DNA from: Candidatus Yanofskyibacteriota bacterium
GTDB lineage: Bacteria; Patescibacteriota; Minisyncoccia; Minisyncoccales; UBA10102
Assembly (NCBI GenBank): GCA_030688685.1
Contig: JAUYJF010000036.1
Location: 1-32,784 of the forward strand
Reading direction: 5' to 3'
Length of the DNA: 32,784 nt
The notes beneath the pieces are model-generated. The model saw only the letters and a list, made by a program, of their open reading frames with translations, searched no databases and was not told where the DNA came from. A program made the translations under genes and the position numbers. Below, piece after piece: positions 12,922 to 21,395 of the stretch (position 1 is the stretch's first letter; each line of letters opens with the position of its first letter).

Positions 12922-13650
12922 TTATTCTAGAAAAAGCTTAGAATGTACCGCTTTTTTCCTTTGATAGTCCCGGTTAAACTCTTTTAGGTAGGAACTTGTG
13001 TTGTGGAAATAATCCACTCCCAGTAATTGGCGGAGATTCGCCTTACTCGTGCTGGAAATGATGTGTGACTCCCTGCCCTGAAAGAGATCTTGAAAACTTG
13101 AGAATGGGTAGCTGTGGAGGAACTCTAGAGCGGTCTTTACATCATCTAACCCCTCCTCTGTCCAGTTTGGCTGGTATGCTTCAAGAACACCCCGTATATT
13201 GATATGTCGCACGATCTCATTAAGCTGCTTTGCGTGACGAATGGGCAGAGCGCGAAAGCGACTCTCAAAAAGGGTCCCTCTGCGTTTATGTTTCATATTG
13301 AAGTACTTAGAGAAACCAATATTCAACTTCTGCATAAACTTTGAGAGGCCAGACTCTGTAGTAGGAATAACTCCCAGATGGTAATGGTCTTGAGCAAGCG
13401 AAAAGCTGAAGATCTGCACAAGCGGATCATGCTCTTGAATAATATATCTATCGGGGAACGGACTCCCCTCCAAGAGATTCCGCGCGAGCTTTGAAACATC
13501 CGTCCGGTAGATATTAAAAGCGGGTTTGCCGGTATTTGAAGCAAACATCTGCACAATAAAACGCGAGCGATCTTGTTCTGTGCCAAAGACAGGTTTCCCG
13601 TCTACCGCTCTACTCACTACATGATGTGGTTTTTTATCTTGAGCTCTCAT
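12922..13650 (-). CDS. REP-associated tyrosine transposase-like protein (Y1 / IS200-like family), RAYT1
   Basis: Y1_Tnp-like: MRAQDKKPHHVVSRAVDGKPVF, FSLAQDHYHLGVIP (HxH-like), NMKHKRRGTLFESRFRA, ISTSKANLRQLLG. Start moved to 13650 from the track's 13713 because MRAQ follows TATACT-N6-ATG. Confidence 0.85.
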   Translation of the reverse strand: MRAQDKKPHHVVSRAVDGKPVFGTEQDRSRFIVQMFASNTGKPAFNIYRTDVSKLARNLLEGSPFPDRYIIQEHDPLVQIFSFSLAQDHYHLGVIPTTESGLSKFMQKLNIGFSKYFNMKHKRRGTLFESRFRALPIRHAKQLNEIVRHINIRGVLEAYQPNWTEEGLDDVKTALEFLHSYPFSSFQDLFQGRESHIISSTSKANLRQLLGVDYFHNTSSYLKEFNRDYQRKKAVHSKLFLE

Positions 13651-13656
13651 GGGTTC

Positions 13657-13662
13657 AGTATA
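13657..13662 (-). promoter_or_regulatory. -10 box of a putative leaderless RAYT1 promoter (TATACT-N6-ATG)
   Basis: Reverse strand TATACT GAACCC ATG. Confidence 0.5.
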
Positions 13663-13680
13663 CGACAGCAAAAACAATAA

Positions 13681-13698
13681 TACCACCTCAGGGTGGTA
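13681..13698. repeat. Hairpin TACCACC-TCAG-GGTGGTA upstream of RAYT1
   Basis: 7-bp perfect arms with a 4-nt loop. Confidence 0.8.
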
Positions 13699-13704
13699 AA
13701 CAAG

Positions 13705-13716
13705 CGATATCACACA
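13705..13716. repeat. Right copy of a 12-bp direct repeat flanking RAYT1
   Basis: cgatatcacaca. Confidence 0.75.
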
Positions 13717-13722
13717 CCGTTG

Positions 13723-15869
<2,147 letters not shown>

Positions 15870-19213: not shown

Positions 19214-19242
19214 ATTATACCAAAAGCATACTCTGATACCAA
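19214..19242 (-). promoter_or_regulatory. Promoter of the GWISFN surface-protein gene (TTGGTA-N17-TATAAT-N8-ATG)
   Basis: -10 19214-19219, -35 19237-19242; lies inside the 3' end of pilD. Confidence 0.55.
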
Positions 19243-19994
19243 TCAAAAATATCTTTTCCCCACAAGAGCGCGAAAAAAGTTCCCGCGATAAGGAAGGGAC
19301 CGAAGGGAATCTCGCTTCTGAGTGCTTTTTTCTTTCTCCCGACAAGAGTTATTCCGACAAAAGCTCCTGAAAAGAACGCAAAGAACAAGGCTACAAGAAG
19401 AGAAGGCCAGCTAAGAAACAATCCCATGAAGAAGGCGAGTTTTACATCGCCAAACCCCATGGCACGTCCTTTTGAGAGCGCGTATATGAGGAAGAAGAAA
19501 AACGCTGCCCCAAGAGCGCTTGCCGCAAGATGTGCCCATTCTCCATGGGAAAGCGGCCAAGATTCAAAAAAGCGCCAGAGGAGAGCAAGCCCGATCGCAG
19601 GATACAAGAGTACGTCCGGAATGAGCATGTGCTTGAGGTCATAGAGAAAAATCGCAGCCAGAAGAGTTACGATCCCGAAAAGAACCACAATCTGAGGAAA
19701 ACTGAGGGAGATTACGTGTATATACAAAAGAAGAAAAAGAAGGCCGGTGGCAAACTCCACAATTGGGTATTGCAAGGAGATCGTACTCTTACAGGAGCGG
19801 CACTTCCCCCTCAGGAGTAAAAAGCTTATGAAGGGAATTAGATCTGTCCAGGAAAGCTGCTGGCCGCATTGTGGACATTGCGATCTCCCCAGCAAGGATC
19901 TGCCATGCTCTAAGCGAAACACGAGCGCGTTTACAAAGCTGCCCGCGGACAAACCAACTCCAAAAATCATTCCTACCCAAAATAATTCAAACAT
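19215..19994 (-). CDS. pilD: Prepilin peptidase (A24 family)
   Basis: SFVNALVFRLEHGRSLLGRSQCPQCGQQLSWTDLIPFISFLLLRGKCRSC, FLYDLKHMLIPD, GRAMGFGDVKLAFFMGLFL. Start MFELF at 19994 preceded by TATAGT-N6. Confidence 0.93.
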   Translation of the reverse strand: MFELFWVGMIFGVGLSAGSFVNALVFRLEHGRSLLGRSQCPQCGQQLSWTDLIPFISFLLLRGKCRSCKSTISLQYPIVEFATGLLFLLLYIHVISLSFPQIVVLFGIVTLLAAIFLYDLKHMLIPDVLLYPAIGLALLWRFFESWPLSHGEWAHLAASALGAAFFFFLIYALSKGRAMGFGDVKLAFFMGLFLSWPSLLVALFFAFFSGAFVGITLVGRKKKALRSEIPFGPFLIAGTFFALLWGKDIFDWYQSMLLV

Positions 19995-20029: not shown

Positions 20030-20037
20030 CATCCAAA

Positions 20038-20066
20038 CCCCCTTACACCCCGGGGGTGTAAGGGGG
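20038..20066. repeat. Left REP-like palindrome of RAYT2
   Basis: CCCCCTTACACCCC-G-GGGGTGTAAGGGGG, 14-bp perfect arms. Confidence 0.92.
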
Positions 20067-20091
20067 TGAGAAGGTTTGAGCACAAGGCCAG

Positions 20092-20763
20092 TCACTCTAA
20101 CGCAATTTTCTTGATCTTTGCAAGCTCTCGCTGATAACCAGCGCGATCATCAACAAACGCTTGATAAGCGGAGGGCTGCTCATTAATAAAATCTCGGAAA
20201 TCACACAGGGGATGGGAAATTCCTTCTGGTGCTGTGTATTCGCCATATGAAGAATATTGCCATTGATGCGCGTTTTCTACGAGGCCCGCGCTTACCGGGT
20301 TAAGGTGTACATATCTACTGAGATGGAGTAGTTGTTCGTCCGAATCCACTGGGACGTTTTTGAATCGACTTTCCCAGAGAGGTCCTTTACGCTTATGTTT
20401 TGTATTAAAGTAGCGAGCGTACGCATTAAGTATGTTGCCCATAGCTATTGCTATGCCGTTGTCCCGAAGCTGCCTTAAAACAAGGTGAACATGTGTGGGC
20501 ATACAACAGTAAGCGATAGCCTGAATCAACTTAGTTTCTTCATTGACCAGTTCTTTTAGACACTTCTCAAAACCTTCTTCCTGCACAATAGAAAGATTAG
20601 TAAATTGAGAAAACTTTGGAAGGTTTCCTTTATAAGAAAAGAATCGGATTATCTGCATCATGCGTTGATACTCCACATCTGAACTGAAAATCTGATAACC
20701 GGCAATACTTTTATTCATTACATGATACACATTACCGGTAATGATGGGATTTTTTCGCTGCAT
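20092..20763 (-). CDS. REP-associated tyrosine transposase (Y1 / IS200-like), RAYT2
   Basis: GNVYHVMNKSIAGYQIF, AYCCMPTHVHLVLRQ (HVH), YFNTKHKRKGPLWESRFK, RYVHLNPVSAGLVENAHQWQYSSYGEY are hallmark RAYT motifs. Confidence 0.95.
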   Translation of the reverse strand: MQRKNPIITGNVYHVMNKSIAGYQIFSSDVEYQRMMQIIRFFSYKGNLPKFSQFTNLSIVQEEGFEKCLKELVNEETKLIQAIAYCCMPTHVHLVLRQLRDNGIAIAMGNILNAYARYFNTKHKRKGPLWESRFKNVPVDSDEQLLHLSRYVHLNPVSAGLVENAHQWQYSSYGEYTAPEGISHPLCDFRDFINEQPSAYQAFVDDRAGYQRELAKIKKIALE

Positions 20764-20769
20764 ATTGTG

Positions 20770-20775
20770 ATTATA
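20770..20775 (-). promoter_or_regulatory. -10 box of a putative leaderless RAYT2 promoter (TATAAT-N6-ATG)
   Basis: Reverse strand TATAAT CACAAT ATG, directly abutting the palindrome. Confidence 0.6.
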
Positions 20776-20804
20776 CCACCTTACACCCCCGGGGTGTAAG
20801 GTGG
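20776..20804. repeat. Right REP-like palindrome of RAYT2
   Basis: CCACCTTACACCCC-C-GGGGTGTAAGGTGG, 14-bp perfect arms; differs from the left copy by paired changes. Confidence 0.92.
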
Positions 20805-20826: not shown

Positions 20827-20854
20827 AAAAAGAAACTCCCGCTCAAAACGGGAG
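20827..20854 (-). terminator. Rho-independent terminator of the pilin gene
   Basis: Minus strand CTCCCG-TTTTGAG-CGGGAG followed by TTTCTTTTT. Confidence 0.8.
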
Positions 20855-20890: not shown

Positions 20891-21346
20891 TTATGGTGAG
20901 AGTGGGTTGCAATTGGTTCCAAGCGTTGGCGCGGCATCTGAGGTCCGCTTTCCGGTTGCGCGAGGATTTGCGACAAAATAGACCACGTTCGGAGCTGTTG
21001 CTGCTTCTTCCAGGGTCGCGTATGCGCAGTATTCCTGCGTGTTTCCGGTGTTATCTACCCACGCGTATGGGGTGGACGTTGGGGACGCAGGAAAGACAGG
21101 GAATTCGGGCAGCAAGATAGTCGCCACCGCGCCGATGTTTGCCGCTGCCGGGTACGCGCCATTCCCTCTTGTATTGTAGAAGAGTTCTGATGCTTTTCCG
21201 ATCGCCTGAATTTCCGCGATTTGCCTCGCGTCTCGCGCGGAAGAACGCGCTCCTCCCAAAGAAACCAACACAATACCGGAGAGAATTCCAATAATCGCGA
21301 TTACCACCAATAACTCAATGAGCGTAAATCCTTTCTGTTGGTTCAT
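20891..21346 (-). CDS. pilA: Major type IV pilin-like protein
   Basis: MNQQKGFTLIELLVVIAIIGILSGIVLVSLGGARSSARDARQIAEIQAIGKASELFYN; start at 21346 rather than 21397. Confidence 0.88.
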   Translation of the reverse strand: MNQQKGFTLIELLVVIAIIGILSGIVLVSLGGARSSARDARQIAEIQAIGKASELFYNTRGNGAYPAAANIGAVATILLPEFPVFPASPTSTPYAWVDNTGNTQEYCAYATLEEAATAPNVVYFVANPRATGKRTSDAAPTLGTNCNPLSP

Positions 21347-21395
21347 AGTATTGAATGTTATGTTATCAGCACGACCTTTGAAACATGATTGATTC

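Follow-up and report, generated by a model that had tools for sequence, protein, structure and literature searches.

The window analysed here, a 32,784-nucleotide stretch of a Candidatus Yanofskyibacteriota genome (contig JAUYJF010000036.1), contains an intact Y1/HUH transposase gene, RAYT2, that lies between genes for a pilA-like pilin and the prepilin peptidase PilD in the order pilA, Y1 gene, pilD, with all three on the minus strand and with a palindrome on either side of RAYT2 (Table 1). The origin in Patescibacteria that the preliminary description had thought probable is consistent with the distribution of RAYT2 protein relatives, which are found mainly in that group, and with the 64-69% DNA identity of some conserved genes of the source genome to Patescibacteria.

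Table 1. Features of the RAYT2 locus and of a second Y1 gene in the window (strand. = none assigned)
Feature	Position	Strand	Remarks
pilD, prepilin peptidase	19215..19994	-	Pfam A24_N_bact and Peptidase_A24; downstream neighbour
Downstream palindrome	20037..20067	.	31 nt; arms of 15; 1-nt centre, C on gene strand
RAYT2, Y1/HUH transposase	20095..20763	-	223 codons; stop codon 20092-20094; Pfam Y1_Tnp, E 1.2e-7
Putative extended -10, TGG-TATAAT	20770..20778	-	its TGG ends the upstream palindrome; read from the sequence
Upstream palindrome	20776..20804	.	29 nt; arms of 14; 1-nt centre, G on gene strand
Third half-site, GGTGTAA	20804..20810	+	abuts outer side of upstream palindrome
pilA intrinsic terminator	20836..20854	-	terminator scan; just outside the element
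pilA-like pilin	20891..21358	-	Pfam N_methyl; upstream neighbour
Second Y1 gene	12922..13713	-	REPIN directly upstream
REPIN of second Y1 gene	13723..13765		CCTAAACC-A-GGTTTAAGCAA/TTGCTTAAACC-T-GGTTTAGG

The 223-aa RAYT2 protein carries an HVH motif (H91, H93) and a tyrosine motif, YVHLNP (Y151), all three residues occupying columns that are invariant in the 21 sequences of the alignment with relatives. By motifs, Pfam and fold, RAYT2 possesses the HUH and single catalytic tyrosine core of the RAYT/TnpAREP proteins. Its Y...NP tyrosine signature is that of class 2, and YVHLNP together with a WE motif fits, within this class, the published signature of subclass 2.1 (Y[IV]HLNP and W[EQ]), although the HUH motif reads THVH where subclass 2.1 has NHVH. 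The sole family match in NCBIfam is REP_Tyr_transpos, with a score of 62.5 bits that does not reach the equivalog cut-off of 80. An AlphaFold model of the protein (pLDDT 87) finds its best PDB fold match in 4er8, the E. coli TnpAREP-REP hairpin complex (E 4.9e-7), ahead of ISDra2 and IS608; a sequence search of the PDB with the single protein returned no match, while a profile search led to 4er8. The C-terminus is helical in the model, and Pfam finds no HTH there. A protein search across the class, at E 1e-30, yielded only one distant relative.

Both palindromes are perfect, and they are distinguished by a single stem pair, C-G versus A-T, and by their central letters; since the stem difference falls at a paired position, palindromy is kept. 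Such a pair of perfect palindromes with compensating differences had been described previously, and the description is borne out: the right-hand copy lies exactly where it had been placed, and one compensated pair is confirmed, while the left-hand copy is correctly located but longer than reported, having one pair more on each side. Their common core, TTACACCCC-N-GGGGTGTAA, occurs twice in the window against an expectation of 0.00 (up to 3 mismatches). Neither copy has GT[AG]G, the canonical 5' foot of a REP hairpin: the upstream one has GTGG at its 3' end only, paired with CCAC, and the downstream one reads CCCCC/GGGGG. The two palindromes are inverted relative to each other, an orientation which, given their near-perfect symmetry, is readable from the centre letter alone. 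Complementary centres hold at RAYT2, in several relatives and in three of the four palindrome doublets of the relative G003, considered below; as a general rule of orientation they were rejected, many other pairs having identical centres.

Genes of this type are widespread among related bacteria. Of 25 genomes of the same family, 18 carry them, and most of these genes are flanked by near-identical palindromes whose sequences are quite different between genes; a scan of public genomes added 80 further related loci, mostly from Patescibacteria. At the 66 loci with both flanks present, nearly all from Patescibacteria, a 12-nt word is common to both flanks in 47 cases, as compared to 4 of 1320 control windows, and a matching palindrome pair in 25, as compared to 0 of 1320; the controls were shifted within the same contigs, so that composition is controlled and relatedness among the loci is not. 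About a third of the 66 loci have no detectable flank word in common. Conversely, G009 contains a lone palindrome and no Y1 gene detected with the RAYT2 protein as query, and some relatives are alike in this. As far as such sequence comparisons go, the association of Y1 gene and palindrome is the rule and not an accident.

Consistent with the view that the palindromes belong with RAYT2, as the preliminary description had it, palindrome similarity tracks protein similarity across the 48 genes with a recognisable palindrome (Mantel r 0.40, equalled in 0 of 5000 permutations). The proteins closest to RAYT2, those of G003 (69%), G590 (46%) and L067 (38%), are all accompanied by CACCC-type palindromes, namely TCGCACCCC, TACACCC-GC-GGGGTGTA and TTACACCCC-AA-GGGTGTAA, respectively. 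Moreover, among 15 copies with the same core from five genomes, compensatory changes on both sides of the stem occur at pairs 7, 8, 9, 10 and 12, the six innermost pairs being fixed by the search pattern and thus uninformative on compensation. Together with the pair counts, these data indicate that Y1 gene and palindromes are cognate partners that co-evolve.

The upstream palindrome also appears to form part of the RAYT2 promoter. On the gene strand it is directly followed by TATAAT, and with only 6 nt separating the putative extended -10 from the ATG, a transcript with almost no leader is predicted; a strict sigma-70 scan found no -35/-10 pair for RAYT2. Among relatives, 20 of 66 upstream flanks contain the -35 word TTGACA, as compared to 49 of 1320 controls, and in those from Microgenomates a half-site of the palindrome, TTGACACC, located a few nucleotides after it, provides a perfect -35 word. 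The G003 copy repeats the arrangement of palindrome and half-site seen upstream of RAYT2. Since the upstream palindrome overlaps the probable promoter, a palindrome-binding RAYT2 product would probably cover it, and autorepression is predicted.

The position of RAYT2 between pilA and pilD, proposed earlier to reflect an insertion, was compared with the same junction in relatives. In 12 of these the two genes are adjacent with no Y1 gene between them, at spacings of 8-272 nt, as compared to a gap of 896 nt at the RAYT2 locus, of which 768 nt run from palindrome to palindrome and 128 are left. Because of this difference, the palindrome-RAYT2-palindrome unit is, on the evidence of gene order, an insertion, with approximate boundaries and target site, as the relatives are too diverged for the spacers to be aligned and none of those with an empty site is close enough. 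RAYT2-type genes occupy different loci in different genera; in G003, the pilA-pilD spacer is empty and a RAYT2 orthologue, 69% identical, is located elsewhere (L007), adjoining a serine-protease-like gene. The pilA-pilD spacer seems permissive for REP elements, because several relatives carry other REPIN-like elements in it, with TTATCCACA-type spacers (G015, L039; G024, L046; G002, L048; G012, L056).

An outer 8-bp inverted repeat, which had been suggested to mark wider limits of the element, exists in the sequence but was rejected as a boundary. A match of this length between two random 60-nt windows of the sequence has a chance of about 4%, the arms lie at unequal distances from the palindromes (about 9 versus 18 nt), and the right arm is located where the T-tract of the pilA terminator ends.

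With respect to copy number, the RAYT2 palindrome presents two different pictures. In its own 694-kb genome, the core occurs only twice (up to 2 mismatches), as the two flanking copies, and neither further copies nor REPIN/BIME doublets were found; with just these two sites, it does not qualify as a dispersed REP or BIME in that genome. In G003, by contrast, 11 copies of CACCCC-N-GGGGTG are present as compared to 0 of a reversed-pattern control, and RAYT2-type palindromes have become amplified and dispersed across the genome. Eight of the 11 form four doublets, 23-31 nt apart, and in three of these a G-centred copy is followed by a C-centred one, with opposite centre letters, as in a REPIN (PMC3116915). 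Two doublets are situated in frame within genes, one in pilD (L158:12834-12880) and one in a nifS-like gene (L160:13446-13490), adding about 20-25 residues and leaving the frame unbroken; REPs in frame inside genes were already known (PMC3733652, PMC6006769). Thus, the REP-RAYT, BIME-like configuration claimed in the preliminary description stands in so far as dispersed REPIN-like doublets exist in G003, and does not stand with respect to the source genome, which has two copies and no GT[AG]G. Judged by that genome alone, which offers no further copies, the claim would fail; it is the dispersal in G003 that rescues it.

Palindromes inside open reading frames were also observed in other genomes: TTACACCCC-type palindromes lie within pheT-like and other frames in G472 (L165 and L166), and in G348 a TTACACCCC-type doublet lies inside an Rrf2-like frame adjoining a cysteine desulfurase (L170). 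The whole G003 genome contains 130 palindromes with arms of at least 10 in 558 kb, as compared to 3 in a Markov-shuffled copy, a density per 100 kb of 23, with 5.4 for the source genome and 7.8 for G009, which is Y1-free by query with the RAYT2 protein.

Several further elements were encountered. The second Y1 gene of the window, unlike RAYT2, has dispersed REPs in its own genome, as the core of its REPIN, TAAACC-N-GGTTTA, occurs nine times at seven places. In another type of REP, present in G000 and G003 (for example L248:7449, L245:4546 and L195:2150), the hairpin is immediately adjoined by TTATCCACA, a perfect DnaA-box-like word; its reverse strand, TGTGGATAA, contains GTGG, and in G003 the word abuts a palindrome in 12 of 20 cases, as compared to 1 of 27 for six shuffled control words. 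G000 also contains an orphan palindrome family with no assigned Y1 gene, CTTGTCC-N-GGACAAG, represented by six copies at four places (L207:56, L215:837, L237:9221-9260 and L253:1726-1765), including two REPIN-like doublets. Finally, over about the first 10000 positions of the window, the listed plus-strand frames are numerous and overlap, and complete minus-strand frames are nearly missing from the list; a single very large, repetitive gene on the minus strand that continues beyond the contig end probably accounts for this.

By definition, RAYTs lie between two inverted REPs whose head is GT(A/G)G (PMC2817692). Like RAYT/TnpAREP systems (PMC2817692, PMC3116915, PMC6006769), the unit described here has its Y1 gene enclosed between co-evolving hairpin palindromes in which pairing is kept by compensatory changes, with doublets in a relative and 4er8 as best fold; unlike them, it has perfect, odd palindromes with a 1-nt centre and no GT[AG]G foot, lacks dispersed copies in its own genome, and in the relative has doublets that are intragenic and in frame. 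TIRtrons, whose flanking repeats are unrelated to GTAG REPs and in some cases self-complementary (PMC3733652), are like RAYT2 in this, but the GGGGWSAS of many, not all, TIRtron members is unmatched by the RAYT2 palindrome (GGGGTGTA). TIRYT/TIRtron elements correspond mostly to Quentin subclass 2.1, reported to be without REPs (PMC6006769), from which RAYT2 departs in the REPIN-like dispersal in its relative; for the C-terminal HTH of that subclass, Pfam gives no match in RAYT2, and the modelled C-terminus is helical. Because both GT[AG]G and GGGGWSAS are absent and a relative displays REPIN-like spread, we place the unit, on its sequence features, between REPtron and TIRtron, as a variant without the foot that works like REP-RAYT and resembles TIRtrons most.

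The layout of the unit, its association with palindromes at related loci, the co-evolution of palindrome and protein, the insertion at pilA-pilD, the dispersal in G003, and the fold and catalytic residues of the protein together make it likely that the unit is REPtron/TIRtron-like, a single-copy gene for a Y1 (HUH) single-strand DNA nuclease bracketed by palindromes that its own product recognises. For RAYT2 itself, we infer that the protein binds and cleaves the hairpins, that the unit is still mobile and that the promoter is autoregulated. Each palindrome would fold into a hairpin when single-stranded, as on the lagging strand, and a dimer of the nuclease would bind both hairpins, cut near their feet with its tyrosine and join the strands, reactions which may once have brought the whole unit into the pilA-pilD spacer. 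In relatives, the nuclease would copy REPINs, pairs of hairpins lacking the gene, to new sites, and RAYT2 probably also represses its own gene via the upstream palindrome over the promoter.

Among other explanations, the one to be taken most seriously, though we regard it as unlikely, is that RAYT2 is a domesticated nuclease, an immobile gene with a host function whose palindromes serve mainly as double-stranded operators (the upstream copy, on the promoter) and as an mRNA-end hairpin. The presence of just two palindromes in the genome, the abutment of the upstream one on TATAAT, the overlap of TTGACA and half-site in relatives and the single gene copy per locus would all suit such a role, but it is at odds with the different loci occupied in different genera and the insertion at pilA-pilD, with the conservation of the downstream palindrome as well, and with the dispersed doublets of G003.

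Two other readings are far less probable. Were the palindromes plain bidirectional transcription terminators that flank the gene by coincidence, GC-rich hairpins next to a stop codon or between genes would be expected, as is observed; yet they have no T-tract, are missed by a terminator scan that does call the terminator of pilA, occur inside open reading frames in G003, and track the Y1 protein in their similarity, making this account very improbable. Slighter still is the chance of an ordinary IS200/IS605 insertion sequence with subterminal hairpins. The Y1/HUH fold common to the IS608 and ISDra2 transposases and the hairpins at both ends are points of likeness, but RAYT2 has the tyrosine motif Y...NP in place of Y...Q, is present in single copy with no second near-identical one found, adjoins no tnpB, and has palindromes at its two ends that are near-identical and perfect.

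The REPtron/TIRtron-like reading bears upon where such systems occur. Y1 genes are found preferentially in big genomes (Quentin et al., PMC6006769), and REP-RAYT systems have been described mainly in larger genomes, whereas here they are common in reduced genomes of 0.5-0.7 Mb, one of which carries many palindrome families; in the literature searched, which left most subscription journals outside its scope, no paper on REPs in Patescibacteria was found. A more speculative proposal, which we put forward tentatively, is that Patescibacteria harbour a distinct REP-RAYT branch, characterised by foot-less perfect palindromes and an adjacent half-site that doubles as a transposase promoter element, and seeding in-frame REPINs in core genes of streamlined genomes. 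The type of REP described here lacks the GT[AG]G foot thought to be central to recognition, and within the family, diverged transposases and their palindromes form natural pairs on which the evolution of hairpin recognition can be tested. On the reading that we prefer, a REP-like system of selfish repeats operates in ultra-small bacterial genomes.
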